Under the pieces are notes generated by a model, which saw nothing but the letters and a program-made list of their open reading frames with translations, was not told where the DNA came from and did not search any database. From NCBI GenBank assembly GCA_017506865.1, contig JAFCMP010000091.1:233043-297042 (forward strand): a DNA stretch of 64,000 nucleotides. The letters run 5' to 3'. Source of the DNA: Tribonema minus (taxonomy: Eukaryota > Sar > Xanthophyceae > Tribonematales > Tribonemataceae). Below, one piece after another: positions 1 to 51,399 of the stretch. How positions within the stretch are numbered: position 1 is the first letter of the stretch; each line of letters starts with the position of its first letter. The translations under genes were made by a program, and so were the position numbers.

Positions 1-3000
1 CTGCTGCGCGAGCCACTCCGGCATGGGCATGCGCCGACGCGGCGCGCTGCCGCCGCTGCCGCCGCCGCCGCCGTCCTGCGCGGGGGGGGCGTGCGACGCA
101 GCGCGGTCAGTGTCACGCGAAGATGGGGGCTGATTGCATCGTTGAGCTGTGGCATGAGTGCCGTGTTGTGGGCAAGATCGTTGGACATCATGTGGCACAA
201 AAAACAACAGCGGCCGAAGCGGAGAGCGTACGCAAAATTCACATGACTTGCTGTGAGCAGGGGTACTTCGGTACATCCCAAACTAATAGTGTTCTGAGCC
301 GATGCCATCGGCCGGCTTTTCGGCTTTCCGGATATGGATCGGCCGGCTTTTTCGGCTTTTTTTGCTTAATCGGCTGTCATCGGCTTTTCGGCTATCTGGC
401 CGGCTTTTCGCCACAACCGGCTTCTGACAGGGTCTATTTTGCTGATACGAATGATCACTCGTCGTCGGCAGCACATTTCTCAATACTGGTTGGAACAGTA
501 CTGTAACTGTAACTGGCAAACCAAGCAGACTGCCCAGCATCCTCAAGCACATTCCTGTGTTTGGCGAAAGCTGTTCAAATTGTTGATGCCTAACCGTGCT
601 GCTCAACCACGCACCAACAATAACAGAGTGACAGCTGCCCACCATCGCAGAGAAGAGAATGTATACTCTCTGCTGCGCCATATCCGAAACCATTCACTCG
701 TCCTGCTTTGCTTCTCAAGCTCAAGCGTGCTGGCACGGCAACCCAACGTCAAGTCAAGCCATGGATCCGTTGGTGCCGCAACAGCTAGCTTCGAAGTAGC
801 TACCATCTGCAGCATTGCTTGCAGGCACACTGAGGTAGGTCAGGCTGAGAAAAGGCCTCACAAACTACTTGATTAGGCCTAATAGGCACATTCAAGAAAA
901 AGCCGAAAGCCGACGTGAGCGATCGGCCGGCTTTTCGGCTTTCTGTTTTAGCCGAAGCCGATCGGCGTAGCCGAACTTCGGCTCAGAACACTACAAACTA
1001 TACACGCATGTTTCATTCGCGAGGAAGCGTACTGCCGCCCGACGCACCAGCAGCGTACCACCAATACATGCATCTTGAAGCCGGGGCATCGGGCAACGGG
1101 ATCGCTGCCCCCTCGACGCGGAGGGGAGGGGTTCGCAAGCCAACATCACCAGCCAGTATAACACTTCGAAGACTACAGTAGTAGTGTGAGCACGCACCGC
1201 CGCGGCGCCCCCATCCGGCGACAGCAGCAGCGCGTCCTCTGCGCAGTCCGCAGGCCGCAGCACACGGCTCAGCAGCAGCAGCAGCTCCTGTATGCCGAAG
1301 GCGACGCGGTCGATGCCGTCCGCCGCCGCGCGGAACGCCGGCACCAGGTGCGCCGTCAGCAGCTCCAGCGTCAGCTGCTCGAGGCGCCAGTCCCAGCCCG
1401 CGCGCGCCGCGGCGGCGGCGGCGTCCGCCTCCGCTGCCGGCGTCGCCGCCGGCGATGACGCGCGCGCGGCTGATCCTGCGATGTTCGCGCGGGACGGGGC
1501 GCGGCGGTCCGCGTGAGAGCACGCCGCGCATAGTGTCGGCTCTGGAGTGTGACTGATTTTCAGAAGGGATACATTTGGTTGCGCCGTCCGCTTACGTCGG
1601 CATTTTCCGGGCATTGTGACTGACCGTTGCGGGTGGTGTAGAAGGAATGCCTCCAGGGGGACAGATCGCGTCAGGCACAGTGATTCGTGCTTTCAGCCTT
1701 CAAAACGGATGGCTGACAGCCTCCCGCAGCGAAGCGTTTCCACATTCCTCCAAGCAAGCTTTACTTAGCGCAATAGCGCTCCGCACATGCCGCTCGTCCC
1801 CATCATACCCCCCCCCCCCCCCCGTCACGCGTAGCCCCCTCCCAGCACCCCCGCCTTGCACAGCGCGGCCCCTCTCCGCCTGTGCGGTTGCGCATGCGAT
1901 GGCCGCCTGCTCGACATGTGTGGACTGCGCCCCTGAATACAAGCTGCTGCAATCGCAGCATAACGACTTCTCGTCCTTGCAGAGTACCCTAGCGCACTGC
2001 TGCGACCTTGCAGAGTACGCAGGCGCGCTGCTGACGGCGCACTCACCGTCCTGGCTAGGCCCGCACAGGCCCCTCGTCCCCAATGCCCCCCTCCCCCTTC
2101 CCCCCTTTGCCACGTGCCGCCCCCCTCAACCCCCTCCCTGCACAGCGCGGCCCCTCCCCGCCCGTGACGATGCACACGGCCGCTTCCTCAACACGAACGG
2201 CGCACTCACCGTCCTGACTAGGCCCCGCGCGGAAGGCGCGCGCGTCGCCGCCGCCGCCGCCGCCGAGCGTGATGAGCAGCTGTGTGGGGTCGATGGCGCC
2301 GAGCTCGCCGAGGCACGCCGCGCATGCCTGGCGCGCCGCCGCGCCGGCGTCCGTCGCGCTGATGCGCAGCAGGCCCTCCACAAGCGCGGCGGCGACGCTC
2401 GCGCCGCCCTGCGCGCGGACGATGGCGAGCGGGGGCGGCGTGCGCACGCGCCGTGCAGCGGTGCGATTTCAGCTGCTTCGACTTGGGTTTTTGGATTTTT
2501 GTATTAATGTGGTAGGGGCAAATGCAAATAGCGAATGACGAGCGATGATGTGCGCGCGCTGCGCAGCAGTGCGGTTCCAGCTGCATTGAGCTCTATGAAT
2601 TATGTTAGACGAGGTGAGAAGCACAGGATGCATGCGCATGTGCGACGCCGCCAGGGGTCGCTCGCGCGGCGGTGGCGCGCGCCGAGCCTTGCGCCGCCCT
2701 GGACGCGCACGACGATGGTGACTGCGCGCGTCGCGCAGCAGTGAGCACGTGCGTCTGTGGAGCTTGTGCAGCGTCAGCGAGCACGGAATGGTGCAGCGTG
2801 CGCACGCATGGCGCTGCCGCATGTCGCAGCGGCGCGGCAGCAAAAGCGGCCATGCTGCGCCTGCAGGCCCACACGCAGCAAAAAAAGTGCCCGGCACATT
2901 CGCAGCGCAGCTTCCAAGCGCGCAGCGCCCAGAAGCGCCGCCGCCGCAGCACCGCCGCCGCAGCACCGTCGCCGCAGCGCCGCCGTCGCAGCGGAGGCCG

Positions 3001-6000
3001 GCGCCGCTCCCACCGCCCCCGAGACGTGCGACGATAGCGGCAACACGGCAGCGCTCACCTCGACCGCAGCGAAGGCAGGCGCCGCTTCCATCGCCCGGAG
3101 ACGTGTAAAACAGCAGTGACCACATGGCAGCGCTCAACATAGCAGCGCTCACCTCGGCGGCCTCCGCGTCCGCAGCGCCGCCGCCGCAGCGCACGCCGGC
3201 GCCGCTCCCACTGCCCCCGAGACATGTAAAATATAGCAGTGACAACATGGCAGCGCTCAGCATGGCAGCGCTCACCTCGGCGGCCTCCGCGTCCGCGGCC
3301 GTGAGCGCGCCCATCTCGCCGCGGCTCGCCTCCAGGACCGCCAGCAGGTGGCGCAGCGCAACGAGGCGCACCGGCGCGCTCTCCTCCCACAGCAGCCGCG
3401 CGAGCTGGCGCAGTCTGTCGCTGAGCGTGGGCTGGCCGACCTGCCGCGCGCAATTAGGGTTACGGTACGTAGGGTTAACATTAGGGTTAGGGTTAGGGTT
3501 AGGGTGAAGGGGCTTAAGCGTAAGTTAGGGTTGGGTGCAGGTGCTGGCGCACCTGTCGCTGAGCGTGGGCTGGCCGACCTGCCGTGCAAAATTGGGGTTA
3601 AACTTAGGGTGAGTAGGGTTAGGGTTAGGGTCAAGGGGCTTGAGTTTAGGGTTCGGGTCAGGAGCGGACTCAGTGCGTTTGGGCACCATCACACGGGATC
3701 GCTGATGCACAATCCGACGCGCATGCCCACAGCAGCCGCGCGAGCTTGCGCAGCCTGTGTTGCTTGGCGTCGGAAGGCCGATCTGCCGCGCGCACACAGA
3801 AGAAGTTTCACCAGTTGCTACCAACTAATCACCTGGCCTCGGGCTGAGCCGGAAGTGCGGTGCAGGAGGAGCGCTGGCGCAGCCAGCAGGATTACAATTG
3901 GGGTTAGGGTGGGGGTGTAGGGTTAGGCAGCCGGCTTCGCTATGTACTTGTTTATCAAGTTTGATGTGATGACGTCGCCCTTCTATGTGGAGGCAGCCCT
4001 GCCTGGCAGCAGGCGCGGAGGTGTCCACTCGAGCGCCGCGCACCGCGCGTTCGGCGCGCGCTGCGGCGGCCGCGGCGGCGCAACTCACGGCAGCAGCAGC
4101 ACCAGCGCTCAGTGCCACATTGGCAAAACTTCCATTATCTACACCTTTGAACGGCATTGGTATGCTTGGAGATTGACGTATTTCTTCTAGTCTTAGAAGA
4201 TGTCTATTATGATAAAAATCTCCTTTTGTACCTACTGAAATTTCAGAATTTATAGATGGGTACAATTTATAGATGGGTACACATCTCACCTCCGCCAATG
4301 TTGCACTGCGTGTGTCAACTGCAGCTATGAAGCAAACACCATTGACACCGCGAGATGTGCGCAGCTTCGAGGGGCGACTGCACCACGCTGCGGCGGCCGC
4401 GGCAGCGCGATCACGCAGCAGCAGCCCCACCAGCGCTCAGCGCCGCATCTCACCTCCGCCTCTATCATGACAATCTCCTTTTGTACCTACTAGAATTTCA
4501 AATTTCACAGATGAATACGCATCTCACCTCCGCCTCCAGCACCGCGGTGACGTCGGCGAGCTCCGGCAGCGCGGGCATGAAGGGGACGGCGCACAGGAAC
4601 GCGCGCACACGCGCGCGCCGCCCCACGATGACGCCGCGCAGCAGGCGCGCCGCCGCCGCGCGCGTGCGCGCCGACTCGTCCGACAGCGCCGGCAGCACCG
4701 CGACGACAGCGGCGATGAGGTTGGGGCCGAGGACGTCCGAGGGGAGGCCGCGGATGAAGGAGAAGAGCACCTGGGGGGGGTGGGGGGGTTGGGGGGGGTT
4801 TGGGGGGGGGGGGGGGGGATGATCGGTCGTTGAGCGACGAGGCGTATGAAATGCAGTCACCGGCTGGGTATATTACATGACAGCGTATCGGCAGATTCGG
4901 TGGCTTCATGGCATCACTGCTGAGATATACTTCTGTATCAGCCAAAGCAGTGTACAAGATCCGTTGCGCAACTCTAACACCAAGCCTGCGCTCTCCTTTC
5001 CAGACATACCTGCGCTCACTGCGCTCTTACTGCTAGTCGTCATTGCGGTCACCATGTAACCCATGCAGCGCAGCGCGTTCGTGCACGTTGCCCTCAGTTC
5101 TAACACTCATTGCGCACACCATGTAGGCCATGCAGCGCAGCGAGCATAGTAAGCGAGGGCGCTCACTATGCCCTCATTTCTGGACCTTGCTGCGCTCACA
5201 CGTAGGCCATGCGACGCACCACGTTCGCTCCCTATGCTCTCATTTCAGTCATCGCTCGCCATGCCCTCATTTCTAGTCAGAATTGCGCTCACCATTGCTG
5301 GTCAACGTTACGCTCACCATGTAGGCCCTGCGGCGCAGCGCGGGCGCTCCCTCACATGCTCTCGCTGCTACAGGTCGCTGCACGCCCTATGCTCTCACTG
5401 CTAAACGTCGCTGCGCTCACCATGTAGGCCATGCGGCGCAGCACGTTTGCTCACTATGCCCTCCGCTCTGATCGTCATCGCGCTCGCCCCAAGCCTATGC
5501 CGTCATTTCTGCTCAACATAGCGCTCACCATGTAGGCCATGCGGCGCAGCGCGGGCGTGCCGTGCGGGTCCGCGAGCGCCGTGTTGACGGTCGCGAGCAC
5601 CTTGGGCTCACTATGCCCTCATTTCTAGTCGTCATTGCGCTCAGCATGTAGGCCATGCGGCGCAGCACGTTCGCTCACAGTGCCCTCATCTAGACCTCAT
5701 CGCGCTCCCCATGCTCTCACTTCTAGACCTCGTTGCGCTCACCATGTAGGCCATGCGACGCATTTGGCATACACAGTAAGCGCGAGTGCAGCTGCTGTAG
5801 CTGGTGAATCTTCAACTGCAACATGGACAGTAGTATGGACTGATTTATTAACTGCGCTCACTATGCCCTCATTTCTACTTAGTCAACATTGCGCTCACCA
5901 TGTAGGCCATGCAGCGCAGCGCGTGCGCTCACGTTGCCCTCATTTCTAACACTCGCTGCGCTCACCATGTAGGCCATGCGGCGCACCACGTTCGCCCCTA

Positions 6001-9000
6001 TGCTCTCATTTCAGTCATCGCTCACCATGCCCTCATTTCTAGTCATAATCGCGCCCACCATCGCTGCTCAACATAGCGCTCACCATGTAGGCCATGCGGC
6101 GCAGCGCGGGCGTGCGTGCGGGTCCGCGAGCGCCGTGTTGACGGTCGCGAGCACCTTGAGCTCCTTTCTAGTCGTCATTGCGCTCAGCATGTAGGCCATG
6201 CGGCGCAGCGCGTTCGCTCCCTATGCTCTCACTGCTATATGTCGCTGCACGCCCTATGCCCTCATAACTAGATGTCGTTGCACTCACCATGTACGCCATG
6301 CGGCGCAGCGCGGGCGTGCCGTGCGGGTCCGCGAGCGCCGTGTTGACGGTCGCGAGCACCTTGGGCACGAACGTCCCCACCGCGCTGCGCAGGAGGTACG
6401 GCGTGATGCGCCCCAGCACGCGCATGGCGCGCACCCAGTCGGCAGCGCTCCGCATCATGCCCGTCCTGTACACGACCTGGGGGGGAGGGGGGGGGGAGGG
6501 GGGGGTCTTAAGAAAGCCTCAAACTTTCTTCTCGGCCAATGTTTGGCATCGTATACACCCAGTCCGCGGCGCTCCGCGTCATACCCGTCCTGTATACGAC
6601 CTGCGGGGATGGGGGGGGGGGGAGAGAGTGTCAATACAAACTACTTGAGGTATCAACCATTCTTCGTGGCCAATTCTTTTGTATTTGTGCACACCCAGTC
6701 AGCAACGCTCCGCGTCATGCCCGTCCTGTACACGACCTGCGGGGGCAGGGGGGGCAGGGGGTGTAACAAGAAACCACTTGAAGTGTCAAACTTTCTTTCT
6801 TCTTGGCCAATTTTTTGTATTCGTGCTCATGTTTTTTGGGGGTGGGTGGGGGCAGTCGCATGAGCGCATCGATCTGACTGTTGAAGATCGGTCAGCGCTG
6901 GACGCTTATGAGTCAGCGCATGCAGAGGTGGTGCTGCGAGGTCGTGTAGAGATACGTGGCGTGAAAGCCAGTCTGAAGCGCTCTGCGTCTGTGCTGGCAC
7001 CGCAGATGTCATCTGCATGGCCATGGGGAACTGCGATACATACACACTCACAACGCCTCGTCAGATGCCTTCCTGTATCGTGGCCGCTTGACTCTCGGCT
7101 ATGTGCAAGGCAAGGCACGCTGCGCTGCCCCCCCCCTAATCACACACACTCACATTGGACATGAGCGACAGGAACGCGCCAGTGATCAGCAGCTCCTCGT
7201 CGTGGTCCAGGGCGTCATCAGCCTCGTCCCTCACGCTATCCGCGCCATCCGTCCCATCGCCGCCGCCTCCGTCCTCATCGCTGTCATCGCCCTCCAGCCA
7301 TTGCAGGTCATCAAGGCTGTCAACGCCGCCGCCGCCACTGCCGCCGCCGCCGCCACTGCCGCCGCCGCCGCTGCTGTCCTCCGCCAGCGCCGCGAAGGGG
7401 TCGTGGCGCTGGAAGCGGCGGCGGCGCGCGCGCTGGCGGCGCACGCCGCACGACTTGCCGTTCGCCAGCGCCATCTGCTCGAGGAGCGCGCAGCAGGCGT
7501 CAGCGCTGGGCGCTTCAGATGCAGCATGCGGGCTACGGAGTGTGATAGAGTGTGTCGGTGCAGCGGCCACCGTTTACGCTGAGGGCGGGTGCCGCCTGTG
7601 CCCGGCGCAGGTGTCGTGCTATGCGATGTGGGAATGATGGTACGCTGCCTCTCTGCTGACAGTAGTGTAGCTGCGCAGCAGTGGCTGCCTGCTGCGACTC
7701 TGCATGTTTATCAACATGACCGGCGAAAATGAACTGCTGCTGCTCCACTGCGACGCAGGCGCAGTCTCGGTTCCACGACACGGGCATGTGCCTACGGGAG
7801 GGAAGCGACCTGCGCACACACATTCCGGCGCAGCAACACAAGCAAATGCGCTGCGCTGTGCTGCGCTCGTAACATTCCCCCCGCCGTCTCCACCAGCGCG
7901 AGCCCATCCGCCCTCGCCAAGAACACAGAATCGAAACACGCCATGACTCCACGTCAAGTGAAAATCCTCAGCTTATGGCACGTTCGGCCCCCGGCGGTCG
8001 CGCAGCACACCCCCCGCGGCGCTCACCTGGCTCGCCTCCTCGAGCGCCGGACGCCGCGCCGACGCGACGCGGCAGTCCACCACAGACGCAACGCCGCGCA
8101 GCGCCGCCGCCGCCGCCGCGTGCGCGCTGCCGCCGAGCTCCCACACCAGCAGCCCCAGCAGACCGCCGAGGTGGATCTCAATGAGCGCGCGCGGCGCCGT
8201 GTCCGGGAAGAACGACAGCAGGAACTGCAGGTCGGGGGCGGGGGCGCCACCGCCGCCGCCGCCGCTGCCGCCGCTGCCGCCGCCACCCCCCGCCTCGGCG
8301 CCCGCCATGAGCAGGCGCGCGAGCACGTGCTGGCACGTGTCGCGGTACAGCAGCAGGTCCGCGGCAGGCGACGCGCCGCCGGCGCCGAGCAGCAGCGCCA
8401 GCGAGCGCAGCGCGGCTTCGGCCCGGTGCACGACGAAGTACGGGACCGTGTGGCGCAGCGTTGCGTGCAGGTACGCCTTGGCGTCGCCGAAGCCGAGGAC
8501 CTGGTGAGAGGGGGGGAGGGGGGGGGGGGGGGGGGTTGGGGGCAGCAGCGCATGGGGAGGGGGGCGTTAAGGGCAGCAGCGCACGGGGGCGCGGCGCCTT
8601 CGGCTATTACGGGGCTGCGTTGCCCAGCTGCTGCAGGTGACGTCGAGAGGCTGTGCTAAAGGGTAGGTATCTGTGTCGCAGCACACTTGGTGCATAGCTA
8701 CGTTCAATCAGAACGGCCCGCAACGAGTGCGAGAAACTGCATGCTACAGGGCCAACATCGGGCCTGCAAACACGCACAAGCATAAATCGTCCGACCGAGT
8801 GAGCGCACACTACCGGCCACGCGCACCGCGCGCGGCCTCACCGCTGCCAGCAACGCACGCACGCCGTCAGCGACGCATGCGACACACGGCGCCGGTCGGG
8901 GCGGCGGCGCGCACCTGCTCTATGAACTCCAGCGCCTTCCCGCGCTCAAGCAGCGCGTCCAGCAGCGGCGGCAGCACCACGTCGAGCGCTGTCGCCGCCG

Positions 9001-15867: not shown

Positions 15868-18800
15868 ATGGGTGATAGCGAGGACATGGCGGAGCGTGGA
15901 AGCCCACTGCGGGCACGCAATAGCGGGAAAGCTCAAGGGTTTTGGAGCAGGAAGCTGCTTAAGCGGCGGCGCAGCGCAGAAGGTAAGAGATTCTTCTCCG
16001 ACAGGCTGACAGAATCGGCGGCATCAGCAATCAGCTGCGCGCTGCCCTAGCCGGCAAGTTGTTGGCGTGCAAGCATGTTTCTACCCTGCGCCTTACATCC
16101 CGGCATGCTCGCCTACTTTCATTGCAGGTTGACGATACACAAACTTGAAGCCGGCAACATGCATTGCCATGCCTGCGTGTCGAAGTCTTTGTGTGGCAGT
16201 CGCACGCGGTATGGCTGCTTCGTTGTAGAGCAGTGCACACCTCATCGTTGCTCCATGGTTTCTGACCAACAGAAATCAACCTCACTTACGCCGAGGCACC
16301 CACCGCCATTACAGAATCAGCGGGTACGCACACAGCTCATCACCGTCATTTGCTATCCTGCACACCTGCTCCGCCGTTGTCAGCTCGGGTGGAACTCGTG
16401 TCCTCATTCTTCGCCTCCTGTGCAGCGTCACCCCTCTGGCGTGTCCATCAGTCATGCCATGCATGGCATGTGCTGTCACCACATGCCGCTCTTGCCTTGA
16501 CGTTCGCCTCTCGTTTCGCTGTATGCAAAATATGATGCCATTGGCCAAGTCAGTGCTTTGGAGTGCTGCAGTTCTACCTGCTCTCGGCAGACCAAGTCGG
16601 CACATAAACCTGCTGACCAACCTCTGGGACGTGACTGTCGCTGTATGCAAAATGTAATGCCGTTGGCCAAGTCAGTACTGTGGAGTGCTGCAATCGTACC
16701 TGCTCTCGGCAGGCCAAGCCAGCACACGAATCTGCTGATCTGCCTCTCAGACGTGACTGTCGCTGTATGCAAATTATGATGCCATTGGCCGAATCAGTGC
16801 TTTGGAGTGCTGCAATAGTACCTGCTCTCGGCAGGCCAAATCGGCACCTGAACCTGCTGACCACCCCCTCAGACGTGACTGTCGCTGTATGCAGAATATA
16901 ATGCCATTGGTCAAGTCAGTGCTTTAGGGTGCTGCAATTGTACCTGCTCTCGGCAAGTCATGTCAGCACATGCCTTTGCTCGGATGCGACTGTCGCTGTA
17001 TGCAAAAAATCATGCCATTGGCCAAGTCAGTGCTTCAGAGTGCTGCAATTGTACCTGCTCTCAGCAGGCCAAGTCATCACTTGACTCTGCTGATCGAGCT
17101 CTCTGATGTGACTGCTCTCGCACGCAGTTCGCAGCGTACTGAAAGAGGGCACGGAGCAGGGAGCATACACGACGCGCGCGCGCCTGGCGCTGGGCGCAGC
17201 GGCATCATTGTGGTGCCTGGCATTCGTGACGCGGTCATGGTGGCCGCTGCGCGTGGCGCTGGTGGCGCTGCTGCTCGAGGTGAGAGACTCTGCCCTCTGC
17301 CCTGTGGCAATGTGGGCCTGACGTATCCCTGCTAGATCATCAAACATCCTTTGTGTGCATGGATCGGCGTGATGCGCTGTCGCCGCATGTCTTCTGAGCG
17401 TTGCGGCCGGGACGTGGACGTAGCGCCTGCTGCCATCTGTGGATTGCGAGTGCGCGCCTGCTGACCTCTAGGCCGTGAAGGCGCCCGTTTCTGTCTGCCG
17501 GGTCCTCCACAGCAAGCGCTCACATCGCCTCCAGTTACACTCGACCGCTTGATCCCGGAGCTTGCAGCGTGCGCAGCAGCTGGCTGCTCCGATGGCCCTT
17601 GATGCCGCCCCCACAAAGAATTCCCTCACCCCATTTCCCCCCAATTTTCCATACCCCAGTTGCTGCTATAGATTCTCACTCCTCTATTAATGTCATCATC
17701 ATTTCTTGCCCACGCACTTTATCATCTGCTGCTATAGATCACCATTTCTCCACAGCCTGTCCTCACATCTTGCCGCCAACACCGGTGCTCTGTGCTCACC
17801 GCCGCCAGCTGATACCGCACTTGCTGCTATAGATCCTCACGCCTCCATTTTCATCCTCAACTCTCGCCCGCACACTATTCATCTGCTCGCTGCCACCAGC
17901 CGCTGCTGCTGGCCTCAGTGCTGCTGTGGAGGACGGGGCAGCTGGCGCGCAGCGTTTGAACTTCACCACTATTTACCAGAGCTCGTGTCGACCACAGTAA
18001 CTGGCTGCTGCGCTGGCTCTTGGCACTGCCTCCGTTGAGAGTCACCCCACCCCATCTTGCCCATTCTGCCTAGTCCCTGTTTGCTGCTATAGATCCTCAC
18101 TCACCCTCCTCCATCATCTTTTGCTCGCTGCCACCAGCCGCTGCTACATACTGGCCTCGGCGCTGCTGTGGTGGACGGGTCAGCCGGCGCGCAGCATTTG
18201 CACTTTACCACCAAGTACCATCTGCCCATTCTGCCTATTCCCTGTTTGCTGCTGTAGATCCTCACTCTCATCCTCTCTCGCCCGCACACTTTGTGCATCT
18301 ATTCGCTACCACCAGCCGCTGCTGATAGCCTCGGCGCTGCTGTGGTGGACGGGGCAGCCGGCGCGCAGCCTGGCGAGCGACGGCATGGCAGCGGCGTGCT
18401 CCTTCGCGGCGGGCTTCTGGTGGGCGGCGCCCGCTGCGGCTGTGGCAAGCGGCGCGATGCAGGTGAAGTTGCTAGCGAGTGTTGTCACGCCCACACGGTG
18501 TCCGCTGCGGCTGTAGCAAGAGGCGCGATGCAGGTGAAGTTGCTAGGGTGTCGTCACACCCTCACATGGTGTTATTGCTGGGTTGAGCGTCCACCGTTCC
18601 GACCGTTTTCGAAAGATGTTTGAACGTGACAACATTCGACTATCTGCACATGCTTGAGCCCCGGCGTCCAGCACGCCCCCGCGGTGGCTTCAAGCGACGT
18701 CGTTGCCAACCAATTAAGTGCAATGTTTTCAGTTGCTCCGCGCCTGAGGTCCGCACATGTACACACCTCTGAGCCACACGAGCGCCTGATGGGGGCGCAT

Positions 18801-26765: not shown

Positions 26766-26809
26766 AGGCTTTGAGGGAGTTCAGGACTATACTGTTCCTC
26801 AAGACATAT

Positions 26810-34800: not shown

Positions 34801-37111
34801 GCCTGTCACGGGTGATGTCGCTGACGCCCTTGATGACCCTGAGCGCTGCCCTGATCTCTTTGCCTGCGCTGCCCTGCGGACACCTGGCAGGGGGTGGGGG
34901 GTGGGGGGGGGGGCGCAGCGCCACGTCAGCGGCTTACATAGTACAGTCTCAGGCCAGATCAGGCATATACTTGGCGATGATACCCATGTCCCAAAATCGA
35001 AACGGCGAAGAGGATGCCCAACGAACATTTGGAGGAGAAAAAGGAAAGAGAACGATCCATACCCATGACCAAAATCGAAACGGCGAAGAGGATGCCCAAC
35101 GAACATTTGGAGGAGAAAAAGGAAAGAGAACGATCCATATGTATACAGGCGGTTGGTTTAAGTTGGCCAGTACATAAGCCGGTATGCTTCAGGGAGGACC
35201 TGTCTATGCAAGGCAGCGTCGATTGACGACCGGCATGCTACAGACGGTCCGTTTTGCGTGAACGAAACGCGCACGCCCGATTCGCCTGCTGCTCTGCCAG
35301 GGTGCTGCGGTTGCAAGGCATGGAACCCCCGGTGGTGAACGGCGTGCATCCGAAACCTGTCGCCCCAGCACTAGTACACTGTACTCTGAGGGTGTACCGT
35401 CACAGTCCAAGCGGGGAGCGTCACACCACCACGAGTACACTGTACTCCAAGGGTGTACTGTCACGCATGCGTGAAGTACTGAAAGCAGCAGCCTGCCAGT
35501 AATCTGCCTCCAGAGGGCGAGATTTTTGGGTACGCGCCATCAAGTTCAAGGGGTGACGCTCACCGCTCCGCCAGCCCCCGCTCCTCGTTGGCCAGGATGT
35601 CCGCGGCCAGCTGCGCCAGCGAGTCGACCTGGCCCGCACGCGCAGCACGCACCGGAAACGAATACGAACAACATCAGTTCAGTCCCTGCTGGCGCATTCG
35701 CGCGAGCAGCGTAAACTCTAGAATGCGCCAACGGTCGCAACAGCGTCTGCAACACGACACGCATCAACGTCCGTTCCAGCCCATGGCCACCTGGACCGCA
35801 CGTGCAGCACGCAGCGAACCGACAATATCGATTCCGTCCCCGGCTGATGGCGCATTCGCGAGAGCAGCGTGAACTCTAGTTGTGGCGGTAATGCGCCAAT
35901 GGTCGCAACGGCGTCCGCAACATGACGCGGATCAACGGCCATTCCAGCTCAGGGCCACCTAGACCGCACGCGCAGCACGCACCGAAAACACATGCAAAGT
36001 ATATCAGCTCAGTCCCCGGCTGCTGGCGCATTCGCAAGAGCAGCATGAATCTTCATCGTGGCGGTACTGTGCCAACCGCTGAGGCCTGCTGTTGGGGAGA
36101 TGTGCGTGCTGCGATCTGCACGGATGCTGTACCTGCCGACAACTATCTTTGTGCGTTCACCTGCGCTCATATGCTTGCAACGTCTGGTTCACCTGACGTT
36201 TGAGCCTTGATGGTGGTCGCAGCAGCGTTTGCAATGCAAGGCGGCGCGACGGTCATTCCGACTCATGGCAGCTCATGGCATACGGTGCGCACCGCGGCGC
36301 GTTACCCGCAGCAGCAGCTGCGCCGTCGGCGACCCGAAGCAGCTGCTTCAGGCATGGCACGGTGGATGCAGGCGAGTCCTCTAACCGCAGCCCTAAGTGC
36401 GAGGACAACGCAAGACAGCAACCACAAAAAAACTGGCGGAGTGGCGCGCGAGGCACACGGGCACGGCAGCGTCGGCGCTCACTCGCGTTCTCCTTGCGGA
36501 CCTCAGACACTGGCGCCGATGATGACACCACATGGCTTCGATAAACACGCCTGCTGTCTGCGGAGGCGCCGCGCTGCGCGGAGCGGCGACTGCCGGCAGC
36601 GGGTAGGAGAAGCAAGGGGGGTATGTATGTACGTATGCTGCTGCTGCTGCTGCGCGAGAAACACCGCGCGCGTGTTCTGACCGTCGCGCAGAGGGCGGCC
36701 GCAGCTGCGGCGGCGCGCACACGAGTGCGGGGGCGCGTCGGTGGCAGGCGCGCCGCAGCGCGCGCTCAGGACGCGGAGGCGGGAGCGGCGCGCAGGTTCC
36801 CGCAAAACCTTTGTAAAATAAAATGTACATGTTGAGACGCGCTGAGGAACATTCGCCGCCAGACAGCACAGGTGCTCGCGGAGACTTCCGAGCAGAACCA
36901 TGAGTTGTCCGAGGCCGCAAGAAGAACAGGCAGAAGCGTAGGCGCACAGTACCTGCTTGCTCGGTGCATATCGCAGCAAGATACAAGCAAACCCAAGAGC
37001 TGTCGAAGCGAGAAGGGATCGACAGGAGTGTGGGCGCACTGTACCTGCTTGCTCGGTGCGTAGGGCACTTCCGGGTATGGCGGCGGCGGCGGCGCCGCCT
37101 TGTGGGTGTCG
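28874..37111 (-). CDS. helical/coiled-coil protein, nine short exons (5' end not located)
   Basis: Exons 37111-37045, 35628-35564, 34868-34796, 33433-33332, 32313-32287, 31508-31455, 30281-30204, 29475-29401 and 28972-28874 join in consistent phase to 212 residues and a TGA stop. The phase agreement across eight junctions is strong support. It begins with a Pro-rich stretch (AAPPPPPYPEVPYAPSKQ), followed by charged amphipathic helices: LAQLAADILANEERGLAER, EIRAALRVIKGVSDITRDRL, EQRTRLQEVRKLIGLYQ, QSLSGEDLEQQLHQ, EAADICSNLASIRDTCEE. One exon is only 27 nt. I do not recognise the family; a subunit of a cytoskeletal, trafficking or nuclear-pore assembly would fit such helices, but that is a guess. 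The gene may continue into the 38,310-39,182 exons. Several exon edges are repeated in the introns. Confidence 0.68.
29502..29622 (+). repeat. dispersed repeat family R1, copy 1
   Basis: Core CGTAGAGCT.TAGGTGACAA, then GTGCCTTCCRCCAAT.ACCGTGG, then GAGTCAAACAGTGCCA-like text. Two related copies lie near 41.3 and 49.9 kb in the same orientation. This copy sits in an intron of the coiled-coil gene. Confidence 0.8.
30547..30725 (-). repeat. interstitial telomere-like CCCTAA tracts
   Basis: Several runs of CCCTAA and variants (CCCCTAACC, ACTCTAACC) lie in an intron of the minus-strand coiled-coil gene. Shorter TTAGGG tracts lie nearby at about 30,958-30,975, and CCCTAA at about 31,668-31,680. 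Confidence 0.85.
32985..33331. repeat. tandem copies of a coiled-coil exon's donor edge
   Basis: About three copies of CATACCTGGTAGAGGCCGAT, then GAGCTTGCGGACCTCCTGCAG, lie beside exon 33433-33332, with spacing near 110 bp. The nearest copy, about 33,197-33,265, also carries the GTCGACGTCCATGTCGAC part of the exon. The encoded echo is RLQEVRKLIGLYQ plus a GTATG donor. Confidence 0.88.
34440..34795. repeat. tandem copies of the 34,868-34,796 exon with donor
   Basis: Three degenerate units begin near 34,442, 34,553 and 34,676, with periods of about 111-123 bp. Each carries most of the exon (CGTGTGATGTCGCTG...CTGAGCGCTGCC) plus the CTCACAATGAGC donor edge. They translate to variants of AALRVIKGVSDITRDRLI. 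The array lies just downstream of the real exon in the intron. Confidence 0.88.
34981..35138. repeat. near-perfect 79-bp tandem duplication
   Basis: The unit TACCCATG...AAAATCGAAACGGCGAAGAG...GAGAACGATCCA starts at 34,981 and 35,060. The copies are identical except at TCCC/ACC near the start. This is far better conserved than the neighbouring arrays, so it is recent. Confidence 0.9.
35629..36050. repeat. tandem array at acceptor side of exon 35,628-35,564
   Basis: Units of about 160-168 bp start near 35,629, 35,789 and 35,957. Each begins with the acceptor-side text (GGCCCGCACGCGCAGCACGC or close) and continues through GCTGGCGCATTCGCGMGAGCAGC. They lie upstream of the exon in the minus-strand gene. 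Confidence 0.82.
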
Positions 37112-39182: not shown

Positions 39183-39459
39183 GTTAGCTTACGGAAGTGG
39201 CGCCGACAGCAAGACAAGCAAGTCAAAAGGCTCCTGATGCCGCTCTCCAGGCACCGACTCGTCCTCTCTCGCTGCTGCACAGGTACCAGTGAAGATTGAT
39301 GTTTGCAGCCCCGAGCGGGACGCCCCCCCCTGAAGTTCGGGGACATAAAAAGTGGCAGTTTTGCGAATTTTTATCTGCTGCTCCTCCCACAAAAAGCTAC
39401 AGCTGCGCGACTACGACTTGCGCTGGACACTAGCTGCGACATCAGACACCGGGCGCGCC
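39183..39459. promoter_or_regulatory. head-to-head promoter region upstream of MAD2
   Basis: The MAD2 start and the proposed MPKARRK start are 277 bp apart on opposite strands. No TATA box is evident. A shared promoter is inferred from spacing and depends on the minus-strand start exon being real. Confidence 0.4.
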
Positions 39460-42400
39460 ATGTCTTGCACTACTCAGGAGACGGAGCAGGTGATCACACT
39501 CAAGGGGTCCACAGACATAGTCACCGAGTTCTTCTTCTTCAGCATCAACAGGTGAGTTGTACTCGCGCTAGTGCCGCCATGATTCTGGTGCCGTGCACGT
39601 GATCCATGAAGTGCAATGATGATTCTCTGGCATTTTGCGCTCGCAGTTCTCTCATCCGGGCGCGCTGATCCTGTTGTTCGTCGATACTCTTGTCTTCTTG
39701 TCCGCGTCACTGGATGAACCACGCGGTCTCTCGTGCTTGCTTCACTGTTGAAGCTCGGCCCTGTATGCCTTGACTCCACCTCTGTAGTTAGCCCTTAATA
39801 GCCTTGCACATTGCTGCCTCCTGCTCCGTGTGTTCGTAGCATCCTCTACCAACGAGGCATCTACCCTGCCGAGTCCTTCAGCAAGCAGCAGAAATATGGG
39901 CTCACCATGATGACGACAGAGGACATGGGCCTGAAGGCCTACCTGGACAACGTCATCAAGCAGATGCATGGCAAGTGGCCTAGCAAACTTTGCAGTCTGA
40001 CTGTCTCAATCCCATCGCATCGTTTGTTGCATGTGAGCTGCTCATGTGCTGCAGCCCATCCAGGGCGACATTTGAGTTTTACGAGGCGAGGAATTAACAA
40101 TAATCATGGCCACGCCACAATGGTGACTTTTATTCATGAACACCGAGCTGTGTAATCAACGGTCAATCCCACGCTGCCAATGCACTCGCAAGAATGCACG
40201 CAGGCAGCGCCGGTGCTGACCAGCCATTAGGCATCGTTTGTACGGCGGCAGCACAGCAGCAGGGCTGCTCCGTGCGGAGGTCCCCACCTTGCACCTGTGC
40301 TGACAGCTGGTGCAGCGCGAACGCGCGACTTTTTTATGTTACGCACCAGCCTAACGTCACGCAGGTCACCATTGCTGCCGCGCCGCCGCCAGTATCAGTG
40401 CGGCCGCAGCACGCGCGCAGCCGCTGCCAAACCATGCCCCAACGCTCAGCACGCGCGGCCGGCCGTGTCTGCTGCTGCGCGTGCGCCGCACATCCGCCGC
40501 GATTGACACACCGCCGGCAGCGTCGCGTCCATCGCCCGCCCCTCCGATAACCTATAACCTGTACGCCGCTGCCTGTCAGCATGCCTTGCGCGTTGCATCC
40601 ATCGCCCTTGTCAGCCCGTTGACCTTTAACCTGAGCGCTGCTGCCTGTCGCACTGCGGCGTCGGCTCACCGCTCTCGTCTCCCTGCTCGCGCGTCGCCGC
40701 CGCCGCCGCTGCGCAGGGTGGATGCTGCGCGACGAGGTGCAGCGCCTGGTACTGGTCATCTCGGGCGTGGAGAGCGGCGAGGCGCTGGAGCGGTGGGCGT
40801 TCCACGTGCAGGGCGAGCCGGCGCCGGCGCCGCTGAAGGAGGCCTCGGGGTGAGCAGCAGTGCTCATCTAAACACAGCCTCCGACTCACTCACCTGTGCG
40901 AGGCTAAGACACGGCGCTGAGCGCTGACCCGGCGCTGAGCACTGAAGGAGGCCTCGGAGTGAGTGGCGCGCTCCGCAGCAGTGCTGATCATTTGAGTTTT
41001 CTGGGGGGTTAACTCGAGTGTATTGCAGCATGCAGCAGCAAACTGTATTCATGGCTTCAACACTGTGGCTCATAGGTGCAGGGCGAGCCGGCGCCGGCGC
41101 CGCTGAAGGAGGCCTCGGGGTGCGCGGCGCGCTCCGCAGCAGTGCTCATCCACTGGTGTGCTGTCGTGATAGCGTCTGTGCGCGCAGCTGCAGTCGCAGG
41201 GTAATTTTGCGTGCGGCGCCGCTGGTCGCGGCTCGCGCGTGCTTGCCGCTGCAGGAGGCCTCTCGGGCTGAGCAGCGGTGCCCATCCGCTGGTATGCTGT
41301 CGGGACAATCTTAAATGGAAAGAAATCAAAAGATTGTAGAGCTCTAGGCGACAAAGTGTAGATAGCCGTCAAATTGAATGAATTCCACCAGTAACCGTGG
41401 TCGCCGCTGCTGCGGCAACTGGCCACGAGTCAAACAGTGCCACCACATCCACAGCAGTGCTCATCCACTGGTGTGCTGGCGGGACAGTCTTGATGATTGC
41501 AACTAAAAAAAAAAAACTACCAGAAAGAAGCGAAAGCGTAAAGCACTCCGGGGAGAGGTACGGCCGCAAGGTTGCTCTCTCAAAGGAGTTTAGGGTCTGC
41601 GCGTGCAGCTGCGGCCCGACGGCAGTTGCAGGCACAGACCGTGTACGATTGCGGCGCGGTGCTGGTGCCGTCGCGACAGGGTCTGCGCTGCATGCAGCTG
41701 CAGTCTGGCGGCGGCGGTCGCAGGTCATTCGCGCGCGGCGGCGCCGGTCGCGGCTCGCACGCGATTGCCTGCGGCGTAGACCGCCGCCATCGCGTAAGCA
41801 TGCCGCGGTAGAGGCGGTTCGGCCTGCGCGTTGCCCGCAGCGTCAGCGTTGCAAGAGGCATCACGCGCCACGCGGCAGCTGCATGTGCACATGCGCGATT
41901 GTCGTGTAGGTTTTCGAATGCCACCAGCAGCTGGCCAGTAACTCACACAGTGCTCAGTGCTTGAAGTACAATTTGCAGTTGTGCGTGGCACCGTCCGCTG
42001 GCTCTGGATGCATATAGCACAGGCGTAGAGAGCGCAGCTGAAGCGGCGAGGACTGCTTGCGCGCACAGGCAATGACGTGGCGCTGACTGTCGACAGTGTG
42101 CGCGCCGGCTCGCACGCGCTCGGCTGCTGCGCGTAGACCGCCGCCATCGCGTAAGCACGCCGCGGTAGAGGCGGCTAAGCCTGCGCGGCGCGCTGCTCGC
42201 AGCGTCAGCGCTGCGAGAGGCATCATGCGCCGCGCGGCAGCTCTGCGCGCGCGCGCCGCACCGCGCCAATCAAGCGGTGCGACACGCCACACACTACAGT
42301 TTGAAACGCCTCCGGTTACAGGCTTGGCGTTGCAGCTCACGAGCGCCGCCCTTAGGGTTAGGGTTAGGGTTAGGTTAGGGTTAGGGTGCTGCGCGGCGCC

Positions 42401-45400: not shown

Positions 45401-45694
45401 CGTGTAAAGTGTGACTCAGCATGGTGCTCGTCGCAGTGCTGAACTTGCAGGGCTGCTACGCCATGTGCAGCGCGGCTGGGCTGAAGCAGTCCCGCCTGCT
45501 GATTGTGGAAGCTGTGCCCTACGCCAGTGGTCCTGTGGTGGAGACAGGGTCTATTAGCCACAGCAGCAAAGCTATTGCTGTTGCGCATGTGCAGGGACAC
45601 GGCAATAAAAATGCAATTAAAATGCATCTGATTGTATGCTACGCTGCGATGTGTCTTGCAGGTCGCTTTCAGGAACCAGAGCGATGCTCTGTGA
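39460..45694 (+). CDS. MAD2: spindle-checkpoint HORMA protein MAD2, complete
   Basis: MAD2 binds MAD1 at unattached kinetochores and sequesters CDC20 to block the anaphase-promoting complex. Eight exons (39460-39551, 39840-39970, 40717-40849, 42775-42841, 43803-43880, 44717-44776, 45065-45112, 45662-45694) join in perfect phase to 213 residues; human MAD2 has 205. Conserved blocks in order: TLKGSTDIVTEFFFFSIN, SILYQRGIYPAESFSKQQKY, LVLVISGVESGEALERW, RKSQKDICNEIQAIIRQITA, TFLPLLSEPCAFDLLVYT, IQWEESDPRYI, VKLRSFSTKVHKV. The HORMA core and C-terminal safety belt are complete. Intron 2 has a GC donor (39,971 GCAAGT). Exon 3's loop carries a Pro/Ala insertion (GEPAPAPLKEASG). Introns hold exon-edge copies, TTAGGG tracts and the R1 repeat. 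Confidence 0.98.
40928..41300. repeat. copies of the MAD2 exon 3 donor edge
   Basis: About 45 bp ending exon 3 (GTGCAGGGCGAGCC ... AAGGAGGCCTCGGGGTG) recur almost exactly at about 41,079-41,122. Shorter copies lie at about 40,942-40,965 (GAAGGAGGCCTCGGAGTGAG) and 41,252-41,275. All keep or nearly keep the donor. Confidence 0.88.
41312..41442 (+). repeat. dispersed repeat family R1, copy 2
   Basis: Starts AATGGAAAGAAATCAAAAG, then TGTAGAGCTCTAGGCGACAA, and ends GAGTCAAACAGTGCCA. It lies in MAD2 intron 3. It shares more of its left end with copy 3 than with copy 1. Confidence 0.8.
42351..42547 (+). repeat. interstitial TTAGGG tracts in MAD2 intron 3
   Basis: Two tracts, 42,351-42,387 and 42,516-42,547, contain four or more TTAGGG units each with one GTTAGG slip. 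A third, degenerate tract lies in intron 5 at about 44,373-44,397. Confidence 0.9.
43340..43585. repeat. about 96-bp tandem repeat, 2.5 copies
   Basis: Units contain GCCGCATGCAGCAGGGGATG, then TCTGCCTTGCTCCCACTG and CGCTTTCGGACA. They lie in MAD2 intron 4. Confidence 0.85.
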
Positions 45695-47531: not shown

Positions 47532-47598
47532 GCGGCGTGGCGCTGCGCTGCGCCGGCGCGGCGCTGCGCTGCGCCGGCGCGGCGCTGCGCTGCGCACG
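47532..47598. repeat. 18-bp tandem repeat immediately after the VTC1 stop
   Basis: GGCGCTGCGCTGCGCCGC-type units repeat about three times directly against the VTC1 stop codon, within the expected 3' UTR. Confidence 0.8.
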
Positions 47599-50500
47599 CT
47601 ATTCGTACATCTCGTACAGCTTGATGGCGCAGTTTAGGACGATGGCGACCATGAGTATGGTCGCGAGCACGGTGGGGCCGACGCGGTCTTCGTACGGCCC
47701 CGGCGCCCTGCGCGCGCGAAAGTGCGAGATGTACAGTGTTTAGAGAAGTTGGCGGGCATGCTGCGCAGGCTTTGCGTGCTGCCTCCTGGAGCAATGAGAG
47801 GACTGTCATCCAGCGACCATTGCAATGGGCACATGCACCGCCCCATGTGGGACATGATTCGTACGGGCCCTGCGCCCTGCGCGCACACGTGCGGAATGTA
47901 CAGTGTTTAGCGTGCTGGAGCACAGTACAGACGCACGAGCGATGATCACAGTGTTCAGCATGCTTGCGCACACTACAGACGCACGTGCAAGGTACAATGC
48001 TTTCTCAACAGGTGCGTGTGTGCGACCGCGCGTGCGTGCGCGCACGTGTGCGAGAGTGTCAGGGGCACAGCGCACAGCGCAGCGCGTGCAGCAACAAGTG
48101 TACATGGGTCGGCGGGGCGCGCTGCGCAGGCTTCACGTGCTGCCTCCCAGGGCACAAGAGGGATGTCTTTAGCGACCGTTGATAGTGGCACTTGCACTGT
48201 CCCAAGTGGAACAGAATACGAGTTCAGCGGATGTGTGAGGTGCCTGAGCACAACCGTGTTGACTTGAGATGAGTATGCGGAAATGACTTTGTGCTCCTGC
48301 GCCTTCCGCCCCCCAATACCTGTGGTCACGTGCCGTGCTGTCAAGCTCAAGTATACATATGTGAAGTTGACGCACCTGTGGCGGATGAGCCGCGCGCGCC
48401 GCATGTACTGGTACAGCGAGTAGACCACAAAGGCGATCGCGACGGGAAGCAGGATGAGCCCGTACAGCTGCGGCAGCAGCAGCAGCAGCGCGAGACAGAA
48501 CGACGAACGCCAGGACTCAGGTCACGGGAGCTGCAAGCATCTGGTGCCCCTGCTGCCGTGATGCGCAGCAGCGTCGTTGTGAGGCGTATGGCGTGGCTCG
48601 CCGCTGCGCAGCAGCAGCACCCGAGCGCAACTGCGCCGCTGCTGCGGTGCTGCGGCCGCAGGCGGCGCGCGGAAGGGCGCCACGCGCAACTGGCGCGGGA
48701 GGTGCTGCAACGCCGGCAGCGCGGCGCAGCAGCCCGAAGCGGGTTCGTCAAGCGCGCTGCTGCTGGCTGTAAGGGCCATTGAGCAAAAGCGCAAGCAGCA
48801 GCACGAGCAGGAGACTGAAAGCGCACAGCATAGACTCCGTAGACTGCCCTGCAACATGCGCAGCGCGTGCTCTCGTCTGCGCGCTACGTGCGCTCCCATT
48901 GGTGTCTCACCTCGCTCCAGGGATTCCGGTCGCCGAACCTGTCGGGTCGGCGAGCGGCGCAGCAGCAGCAGCGGCAGCAGCAGCGGCAGCGGCAGCAGTA
49001 GCGGCGGGGAGCGACGGGGCGATGAGATGCGCAGCACCGCTGGGTTCATGGCATTGCTTGCATTCCGCCACGTGATGCCGTGCGCACACGCAGTATCGAG
49101 CAGCAAGCGCCGCGGGGCCCGGGACGCGCAGCCGTGTCAGTGCTCCGAGGCGCGCACGCGTGGTCACCACGGAAGTGGTCACGCCGAGCACTGATGCATC
49201 AAGGACACATTATTTTTCGTTCAAACAGACTCGTATTGCTTTCATGTGCCGCTTGATCTTCGTGCGAAGTGCAGTACGTCCACGCCTGTTCACATCTATG
49301 TAGATTGTGCTTGATGCAGCTTTTCCTGCGCATGCGCAGTGTTATGGGCACACAGAGCACGAAGCAGCAGGCATATCATAGTCCACGGCTGCGTCAGTGC
49401 TCCAAGGCGCGCGTGCATGGTCACCACGGAACGGTCGCGCCGAGCACTGATGAAACGATCATGTGATGCGTGCCCCAAGGCGAATGAATGGCTGAGCCTC
49501 GCCTACATGCCGATACGCACGGGATATCTGCACCATCAAGTAAGCCTCGACAAGACGCGACTGGGGCGGCGGGCGGTGAAGCAACGAATCTGCGGGCACA
49601 GGCACCTACAGGGCATGGACATATACTTCAATGATACGACATCTGTACTTGTGGACTTGTATTTATGAAGGCTCAGAGGGAGGCCGCGTGTACTATGCAA
49701 CCGGGAAGTTTACTCCCATGCAGCAGCCTAGTTTGCACTGCCCCCCTCAGCGTGTACCATGCAGCCGTGAAGTTTACTCCCATGCAGCAGCACAGTCGGC
49801 ACTGCGCCCGAAGCGCTCTCGTATGCCAGCGTTGCAACACAGCCCGGAATCCGCGCTCCGCATCTGTACTATACAGGGTCGAGTGCAGCGAGGACTTACG
49901 AGATGACAAATATACTAATGGAAATGAATCAAAAGTTCGTAGAGCTCTAGGTGACAAGGTGTCGTTAGCCACAAGTGCCTTCCACCAATCACCGTGGTCG
50001 TCGCTGCTGCAGCCATTGGCCATGAGTCAAACAGTGCCACCATATATATACTTGAATGGTAGGGCATCTGCACTATACAGGGCTGCAGTGCAGCGAGGAC
50101 TTACGAGATAATGGCGGTCGCAATGGTGGCCATCGTGACGGATACGTGCATCCTGCGACAGTGGGGCGGGGGGGGGGGGGGGGGGAGGGGGGGGAGGGGG
50201 GGGGGAGCCTGAGTCGTCAGCAGCCAACGCTGTGACAGCATATATGCATGTAGGTTTGTACGCATGTGCGCCCGTACCATGCCTCAATGCCTCCCGGCAC
50301 CAGGAACGTACAATTACTGAATGTGCGGCATGTAATTCGCATGGCGATCCCAGCACGGACTGGTCGCCCATATGATTCGAGAGATTGGCACGTTGTCGCT
50401 AATCTGTGCGGGGGGAGGGAGAGCGTGGCCTTGTAGCGAAGGCGAACTGAAGGACGAGCGGCACTAGTTGAAGTTGTTGAAGTTGAAATTCTGAACTTGC

Positions 50501-51399
50501 GCATCGCGTGAGACAGACGAATCTGATATCGCAAGGAGCAAAGATGCTGCTGCGATGATCGGCGAGGCTGGAGCTCAGGTAACGCTGCTCACCAGCTACA
50601 GACGAACCGTTTTGTGTTGAGTGACGCTCGTTCACGGCGCAGGCGATGCTCCTCACCAAACTTAACTTCTTCAAGGGTGACGCAGCCATGATTCAAAAGT
50701 GACGTTCCTCACGGCGCAGGCGACGCTCCTCACCACGCACTGAATTTCTTCAAGAGTGACGCTCGTCACATGGCCTCACATGACGCAGGCGACCCCTCAC
50801 CATATACTGAACTTTCTGTAGCGCGACGTTATGTACTCACCACGCGATGAACGTCCGCTCGTTGCTGAAGAACACCTTGGGCTCCACCTTCACAGACGCT
50901 GACTGCGGCACACGCAAGCAGCAGCAGCAGCAGCGGCAGCAGCAGCAGCAGCACGACAGGCGGGTGACATTGAGAGAGCAGCATCATGGTTTCGAACATC
51001 AGCGCGCGAATGAGAACTGCACAGACCTAACCCTAGCCCTAGCCCTAACCCTGGTGCGGCGCAGCGGCGCTCCGCAGGCGAGAAACTCCTCCGTACAGCA
51101 TCACTAGCAGTGGCGCTCGCGCCGTGCCGCCGCGCGCGCTGACACGCCAGCCCTGCAGCCTGTCCACAGCGCAGCTCACGCGCATGGCATACACATTCCT
51201 CTGCTGCGCCTGCAACCGCAACCGCAACCGCAACCGCTGCTGCACCTGCGACCGCAGCCGCAACTGCAACTGCAACTGCAACCAAGCGTGCGCCGGCGCG
51301 CTGCGCTGGGCAGCGAAGCGAGCTACGCATGCATCGTTCGCAGAGGCCGAGTGACTCGTTCGTTGAGGCCGAGTGACTCACGCTGCGTGGCTTGTCCAT
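47599..51399 (-). CDS. VTC1: vacuolar transporter chaperone subunit VTC1, complete
   Basis: VTC1 is the small membrane subunit of the complex that makes polyphosphate from ATP and feeds it into acidocalcisomes or vacuoles. Exons 51399-51382, 50902-50841, 50152-50105, 48938-48911, 48467-48376 and 47707-47599 join in perfect phase to 118 residues (yeast Vtc1 129). VKVEPKVFFSNERTFIAW at residues 10-27 is the family signature. Three helices follow at about 27-43, 53-73 and 92-112, and GPYEDRVGPTVLA at 86-98 is the second signature. There is no SPX or polymerase domain, so this is VTC1, not VTC4. The partner VTC4 is not in the window. The first coding exon is only 18 nt (MDKPRS) and exon 4 only 28 nt (FGDRNPWSE), so automated callers may miss this gene. 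Confidence 0.96.
47855..47905. repeat. copy of the VTC1 last-exon acceptor edge
   Basis: ATTCGTACGGGCCCTGCGCCCTGCGCGC repeats, with changes, the start of the last exon and its acceptor (TTCGTACGGCCCCGGCGCCC at about 47,690). It is followed by the shared text GAATGTACAGTGTTTAG. It lies upstream in the intron. Confidence 0.75.
49135..49452. repeat. pair of about 60-bp hairpin elements
   Basis: Copies at 49,135-49,196 and 49,392-49,452 share GTCAGTGCTCC.AGGCGCGC, TGGTCACCACGGAA and CGCCGAGCACTGATG. Each has inverted ends (CAGTGCTC / GAGCACTG). Both are in one VTC1 intron. Confidence 0.75.
49917..50040 (+). repeat. dispersed repeat family R1, copy 3
   Basis: Starts AATGGAAATGAATCAAAAG, then CGTAGAGCTCTAGGTGACAA, and ends GAGTCAAACAGTGCCAC. 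It lies in the VTC1 intron next to an echo of the exon 3 donor edge (GCAGCGAGGACTTACGAGAT at about 49,888). Confidence 0.82.
51026..51053 (-). repeat. interstitial CCCTAA tract
   Basis: Four CCCTAA/CCCTAG units in the first VTC1 intron. Confidence 0.85.

Follow-up and report, generated by a model that had tools for sequence, protein, structure and literature searches.

The question raised by a 64,000-nucleotide stretch of Tribonema minus contig JAFCMP010000091.1 (positions 233,043 to 297,042; here called the window, and its contig C91) is why the edges of several exons, together with their splice dinucleotides, appear again in the adjoining introns. We refer to such copies as echoes. The genome comprises 158 Mb in 554 contigs, and a sequence-only reading of the window had described the copies as unusually frequent and as a possible route both to longer introns and to new ones. 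The exon-edge echoes were confirmed as real and extend outside the window: about one third of the introns sampled elsewhere in the genome hold decaying copies of an exon edge with its splice site. The process is intron growth and not intron birth.

Genes outside the window were picked by family search, to avoid reliance on the window's gene models. They comprised chaperonins (PF00118, ten regions holding all 56 listed matches), HSP70s (PF00012, five of 20 regions, picked for exon number and size) and kinesins (PF00225, two of six regions). Exons were defined by homology and placed with a purpose-written spliced protein-to-DNA aligner. A first dataset of 110 introns used family profiles from the genome's own exons; 41 of its introns were echoed, and five cases resembled intron birth. 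For the rebuilt set the outside queries were taken from E. coli (GroEL and DnaK), and 67 rows were dropped: 20 HSP70 introns on which the two methods did not agree, five HSP70 and three CCT introns shorter than 100 bp, three duplicates, and among the remaining CCT rows 28 with weak flanks and eight with redundant exon ends. Three HSP60 genes aligned over nearly their full length with E. coli GroEL (48-60% identity). The final set held 88 introns from 15 genes, with a median length of 515 bp and 82 GT and 6 GC donors. An echo was called when the 45-base exon edge matched its own intron with a score of at least 30. Splice-site scores were trained on the first dataset.

Echoes were found in 32 of the 88 introns, at 22/88 donor edges and 16/88 acceptor edges, with six introns echoed at both ends; the figure of 32/88 may be an underestimate because the redundancy filter discards echo-like cases. 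Shuffled introns gave 1/4,400 donor and 1/4,400 acceptor matches, and the comparison of introns with their flanking exons (32/88 versus 2/8,800 in shuffles) holds beyond the window. Reverse-complement edges gave no match at 88 donors or 88 acceptors (0/176), exon-middle probes matched in 3 of 73 cases, and all exon-edge copies lay on the same strand as their exon. Echoed introns were longer (median 706 versus 428 bp, p = 8e-5). Eight of ten introns were echoed in the two kinesin genes, which played no part in the design of the test, a rate that may be high given rougher models, long introns, three doubtful GC donors among the ten, and the omission of the flank and redundancy filters and of shuffles. 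When exon edges were compared with the introns of other genes, 2/4,400 donor and 12/4,400 acceptor matches were obtained (14/8,800), against 38/176 for the edges' own introns. This comparison, which concerns exon-edge copies only, speaks against insertion at junctions by introner-like or other mobile elements; introners are reported from two algae and from Amoebophrya (PMC7789003), and we consider this origin extremely improbable here.

The copies kept largely to the side of the edge that they resemble. Of 69 copies, 54 lay in the edge's own half of the intron, and so did the nearest copy at 35 of the 38 edges; in all six introns with echoes at both ends the donor copies preceded every acceptor copy. 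The earlier statement that copies are always on the same side is therefore nearly right. The claim that echoes decay outward was borne out: when two copies of one array were compared, the nearer resembled the exon more closely in 40 of the 51 pairs that were not tied. Successive spacings (n = 61) ranged from 54 to 323 bp with a median of 153 and had no frame bias (remainders 0, 1 and 2 in 17, 23 and 21 cases). The exon portion of the copied unit reached about 100 bp, and its aligned intron side was 74% identical, compared with 59% for shuffled sequence. Head-to-tail copies were clear by eye in the array at 6130-6995 of L049, one of the HSP60 genes. Placement of allelic or misassembled pieces in tandem by the assembler would make the echoes an artefact, and the differences between exons and echoes do look partly allelic in their third positions. 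The copies are nevertheless diverged, carry indels and fade with distance, the deep exon interior is spared in a way not expected from an assembler, and two contigs, C179 and C90, share the same single local repeat copy (one pair, allelic or duplicate). An artefact is very unlikely on this evidence.

The rate at which 30-bp probes were repeated was then compared by distance from the junction. On the donor side it fell going into the exon (20/85, 15/76, 7/70 and 3/55, or 0.24, 0.20, 0.10 and 0.05) and was zero beyond 120 bp (0/39, 0/26, 0/22 and 0/14); in the intron it was 0.15-0.31. On the acceptor side the rates were 0.18, 0.16, 0.04 and 0.02 into the exon and 0.13-0.21 in the intron. Repeat coverage is thus approximately flat across the intron, runs on over the junction and is close to zero some 100 bp inside the exon, a shape predicted by random breakpoints and loss of exon-internal events. 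Junctions therefore do not look targeted, and the breakpoints seem to be placed nearly at random along genes. In favour of duplication targeted to exon-intron boundaries, through chromatin, R-loops or splicing-coupled breaks, exon edges are above the intron interior at a score of 50 (16/88 and 14/88, against 145/1574). At a score of 30, however, 25% of donor and 18% of acceptor exon edges were repeated against 22% of the interior (341/1574), and the intron-side edges barely exceeded the interior or fell short of it (16/86 and 15/86, or 19% and 17%, at 30; 9/86 and 6/86 at 50). The excess at the strict score would fit one-sided decay of exon copies, exon constraint by itself slowing exon-echo divergence, and the profile is unbroken across the junction. 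Targeting of junctions is in our judgement unlikely.

Whether duplication lengthens introns or creates them was addressed in the HSP60 paralogues L043 and L049, the one gene pair on which the growth comparison rests. Their proteins are 78% identical, and seven introns are shared in position and phase. Added up, these seven come to 2,953 bp for L043, against 6,719 bp for L049; local repeats account for 116 bp of the former and 3,103 bp of the latter, and hence for 2,987 of the 3,766 bp difference. The suggestion that duplication over exon boundaries is a route to introns is accordingly supported for growth and not supported for new introns, as seven of the eight L049 introns share position and phase with a nearly repeat-free paralogue and the order of copies was that of growth in 6/6 double-echo introns. 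Intron birth through tandem copying of exon sequence that contains AG/GT (the Rogers/Hellsten type) could be proposed for the eighth, a 645-bp intron at GroEL column 436 that is missing in both other aligned HSP60 genes and consists of repeats over 484 bp. Its geometry is the reverse of the birth layout: copies of the upstream exon occupy the first half and copies of the downstream exon the second, as in growth, and the nearest copy lay in its own half for most edges, as given above. We therefore consider intron birth highly improbable. As to the five birth-like cases of the first dataset, three fell on realignment with E. coli GroEL, the two others were taken, on visual inspection, to be decayed copies mistaken for exons, and none is in the final set.

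We consider it quite probable that frequent local duplication with random breakpoints, persisting within introns and across junctions, lengthens introns by way of decaying echoes. Such duplications would hit the genome often, with breakpoints near random along genes. One falling inside an exon would break the protein and hence be lost through selection; one internal to an intron or straddling a junction would persist while the spliceosome used the outermost copy, that is, the first donor or the last acceptor, those joined to the complete exon. The surplus end of the exon would then become intron and drift, along with the splice site and the intron bases next to it, and recurrence at one edge would produce a longer intron with a series of echoes that decay outward. 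The molecular cause may be slippage, unequal exchange or synthesis-dependent repair.

The mismatches between exons and echoes fell unevenly over codon positions. In 74 echoes of 38 edge families, 6.5, 5.5 and 18.4% of bases differed at positions 1, 2 and 3, a third-position ratio of 3.08 (95% interval 2.4-3.9 over families and 2.3-3.5 over genes); in families with a single echo the ratio was 2.5. By eye, copies 3 and 4 of the L049 array at 6130-6995 agree with the exon in third-position states that set them apart from copies 1 and 2, a pattern expected of exchange between two functional versions. The concentration of mismatches at third positions was noted in the echo arrays of L046, L049, L041, L045 and L039. 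Two explanations were tried and rejected. Faster synonymous change in exons than in introns was not seen between C179 and C90 (9/566 at third positions, 6/403 and 4/210 in introns), a comparison to be read with caution as the exon model extends beyond the likely donor. Conversion of exons by their echoes was not seen to speed synonymous change either, echoed edges of L049 being, on the contrary, closer to the paralogue (65/203 differences) than the remaining sequence (90/204). The HSP70 regions of C179 and C90 (L061 and L062) are 97.6% identical over 2.8 kb, and represent unmerged alleles or a recent duplication.

Junctions could be anchored in 61 copies (8/69 were unanchorable), of which 48 kept their splice dinucleotide, GT in 26/34 donors and AG in 22/27 acceptors. 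Base by base, GT was preserved at 59/68 and AG at 48/54 positions, and the exon bases 4-20 from the junction at 517/570 and 411/455 (p = 0.28 and 0.81, respectively); splice sites and exon sequence in the copies decay at similar rates. Many copied sites were still strong, defined as at or above the 25th percentile of real sites (21/34 donors and 14/27 acceptors, in 17/88 introns). Most strong intronic sites were not echoes, which made up 21/116 of the donors and 14/222 of the acceptors. Splicing in this alga probably has to pass over many sites that resemble the real ones, and the fact that intact acceptors upstream are tolerated may point to exon definition. A partner site was present for 3/14 and 8/21 decoys, and 0.31 and 0.68 were obtained in a random comparison confounded by position; the idea that decoys avoid partner sites was dropped because of this confounding.

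The echoes might instead be functional, as alternative exon edges retained for regulated splicing or translation. The strength of many copied sites and the third-position excess are in keeping with this, as are the 27 of 74 echoes which, selected for little change at positions 1 and 2, were still 14% different at position 3. Against it, the distances from the echo sites to the real site had no frame bias (remainders 0, 1 and 2 in 20, 20 and 21 cases), 25 of 27 gaps in the echo alignments shift the frame, and GT and AG were no better kept than the copied exon. Function of this sort is distinctly unlikely.

More tentatively, and with less confidence than in the growth of introns by local duplication, we entertain the echoes as a genome-wide natural experiment in splice-site choice. 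Duplication would go on providing almost perfect decoy donors and acceptors close to the real ones, among them acceptors transcribed ahead of the true one, and these would be left without visible purging; recognition of the complete exon by its paired sites would decide, and neither the strength nor the order of sites, and the third-position excess may hint at renewal of the arrays from functional exons, perhaps of other alleles.

Genes differed widely in echo rate, with 0/7, 0/6 and 0/6 introns echoed in three of them and 5/6, 5/6 and 6/8 in others (permutation p = 1e-4). The genes contrasted in echo rate were L043, L044 and L048 versus L041, L045 and L049. Local repeat coverage of the gene regions examined ranged from 0 to 0.47, and no significant correlation of echo rate with GC content at third codon positions or in introns was found in the 15 genes.

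Several observations weigh against growth by random local duplication, or against parts of it. The heterogeneity between genes is strong, so that the process is not uniform. Simple head-to-tail duplication was not shown for most pairs, a match over the full period being present in no more than 4 of the 36 pairs with at least 93% identity. The acceptor profile was less clean than that of the donor, with 5/134 stray matches beyond 120 bp (0/48, 3/37, 1/31 and 1/18). Neutral echoes combined with synonymous drift of the exon gave simulated third-position ratios of 1.6-2.1 (single runs 1.44-2.27), below the 3.08 observed. The three exon bases beside the junction were better kept at donors than GT (83/84 versus 59/68, p = 0.005; 71/75 at acceptors), and there could be some mild purging of copied sites, with the caveat that these bases are favoured by local alignments, whose ends usually fall on matching positions. 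Finally, the gene models are derived from homology and not from RNA.

In the window itself, local same-strand repeats were dense (168 pairs within 3 kb, low-complexity filter applied). It was scored only at strong ab initio exons, from rough models with many tiny spurious exons, and 10 of 57 exon edges had a copy on their outward side with a score of 30 or more. About seven of these ten were convincing; three were weak or not splice-like, namely those of 13331-13630 (CG), 18315-18504 (CA) and 55074-55873 (score 30, CT). With MAD2 exon 3, which was found by hand, this makes about eight edges in the window, fewer than the dozen or more echoed exons announced by the sequence-only reading, although the echoes themselves are real. 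Its description of an exon edge copied outward with the splice dinucleotide was accurate: for exon 3276-3440, AG stands before each of the acceptor copies (3578 and 3782) and GT after the donor copy at 3152. The gene names it gave fared unequally. MAD2 was well supported by two earlier exons (E = 4.7e-15) and ATR weakly (E = 0.033), while VTC1 had a DUF202 match below the cut-off and no PDB match. The coordinates are collected in Table 1.

Table 1. Exons, their echoes and other local repeats in the window (positions counted from its first base; slash, splice junction).
Feature	Position	Strand	Basis
Donor-side echoes of exon 3276-3440, exon tail + GTGAGC; junction equivalents 3152 and ~3059 (latter by eye)	3059..3176	-	Repeat search and inspection
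Exon of ATR-like HEAT-repeat gene, both edges echoed	3276..3440	-	Ab initio, codon score 43
Acceptor-side echoes of exon 3276-3440; junction equivalents 3578 and 3782, AG intact at both	3543..3794	-	Repeat search, ab initio edges
Decaying donor-side copies of the end of exon 6288-6476, arrayed	5007..6217	-	Repeat search, ab initio, by eye
Further exon of ATR-like HEAT-repeat gene, both edges echoed	6288..6476	-	Ab initio and by eye
Acceptor-side echoes of exon 6288-6476; junction equivalents 6600 and 6736, both after AG	6519..6826	-	Tandem Repeats Finder (TRF), period 136
Tandem array, period 122, 5 copies; untied to any exon edge here	16516..17114		Repeat search
Acceptor-side echoes of exon edge 19491: 19943 and 19823 after AG, 19603 after GG	19443..19972	-	Repeat search, ab initio edges
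Donor echoes of exon 33332-33433, three, ~109-135 bp spacing, furthest most decayed	32950..33269	-	Repeat search, by eye
Exon with donor CAG/GTATGT, gene labelled coiled-coil in the sequence-only reading	33332..33433	-	Ab initio, by eye
Tandem array, period about 119, 3.2 copies; no modelled exon edge	34442..34859		Repeat search
MAD2 exon 3 end, donor GTGAGC	40806..40850	+	Exon placed by eye; MAD2 identity from two earlier exons
MAD2 exon 3 donor echoes: 40929-40957, 41076-41120, 41245-41262	40929..41262	+	By hand and repeat search
Edge 47730 with single copy 47897 with GT, 85% over 55 bp; weak exon model	47689..47910	+	Repeat search, ab initio

The end of the minus-strand exon 3276-3440, GCCGAG/GTGAGCGCTGC, was found again at 3152 and in a shorter form at about 3059, and the stretches 3064-3176 and 3184-3299 were 86% identical. 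Among the donor-side copies of exon 6288-6476 two, 5529-5609 and 6122-6220, resemble coding exons; 5529-5609 was rejected as an exon, being itself a copy of the end of exon 6288-6476, and the donor-side run reaches about 5050. The end of the minus-strand exon 33332-33433, CTCTACCAG/GTATGT, recurs at 33197 and 33088 (before GT) and in decayed form at about 32970; a family search of this so-called coiled-coil gene matched no family. The last 45 bases of MAD2 exon 3 were repeated with zero mismatches in the second of its three echoes and partially in the other two. A HORMA search found nothing, nor did its control, and is uninformative about MAD2, while an Rfam scan of the window gave zero families at the gathering score.

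A choline/ethanolamine kinase exon lies at 55076-55876 of the window on the minus strand (E = 1.3e-54). Telomere-type TTAGGG/CCCTAA arrays occur in the window at 3470-3505, 11239-11276, 30606-30655, 42352-42387 and 42517-42547, and an 18-base pattern of this type has 6,236 and 5,238 occurrences on the two strands genome-wide. Fragments of the plastid psaA gene are scattered on the contigs (L059, L060 and nine more places, including C91:181506, on the window's own contig). For a 53-residue stretch of one nuclear psaA fragment the best PDB matches were 9YGV, from giant kelp, and 9M4F, with almost equal scores, whereas 9JJ8, from Emiliania, ranked far lower (organisms from PMC13219633); with low confidence this indicates an ochrophyte alga.

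Boundary-spanning tandem repeats are of a kind already known, with human examples, and it is the frequency found here that looks new. Among human paralogues, internal tandem repeats at exon-intron boundaries alter introns (De Grassi and Ciccarelli 2009, PMC2812944), and the same source gives 27 intron modifications in recent duplicates, 66% with an alternative transcript retaining the repeat. In T. minus too the unit holds exon and intron bases across the splice junction; unlike the human cases, the echoes affect about one third of the sampled introns, lie in housekeeping genes, often comprise several decayed copies, and are described at the level of DNA. The IFI6 (6-16) minisatellite, a source of multiple donor sites for splicing (Turri et al. 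1995, cited in PMC4526556), is likewise a repeat with splice-donor copies. It concerns one human gene in which the sites are used, whereas the echoes, seen so far at the level of genomic sequence, are spaced by about 150 bp and involve donors and acceptors of many genes. Intron gain through tandem genomic duplication, in which an exonic AGGT segment gives a new intron (PMC3443670), shares local duplication near splice motifs with our case, but here existing introns lengthen and the copies keep to their own side. Repair-mediated duplication in the human genome, with more than 1,000 probable events, closely linked, up to 619 bp and sometimes including splice sites (Pace et al. 2009, PMC2671141), resembles the closely linked copies found here at the spacings given above, and differs in that repeated events at one edge make arrays in T. 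minus. Introners are families of repeated introns, those of Amoebophrya having direct repeats of 3-5 nt at their borders (PMC7789003); they too place repeated sequence at the borders of protist introns, but the echoes are gene-specific and longer. In searches covering open-licence PMC papers, no description of exon-edge echoes at such frequency was found.

The echoes make intron lengthening visible through one process, at an apparently undescribed frequency. They also carry a warning for annotation, as they show up as surplus exon matches in profile searches; repeated intron flanks are reported to produce false spliced alignments (EASTR, PMC10632439). If the sampled rate holds, the genome would contain many built-in controls of exon definition, in the form of splice sites that are almost the same in sequence but differ in whether a whole exon is attached, and if the splice-choice reading is true the echoes would serve as dated copies of a gene's own exon edge. 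The main interest of T. minus in this respect is as a system for studying splice-site choice and intron growth.

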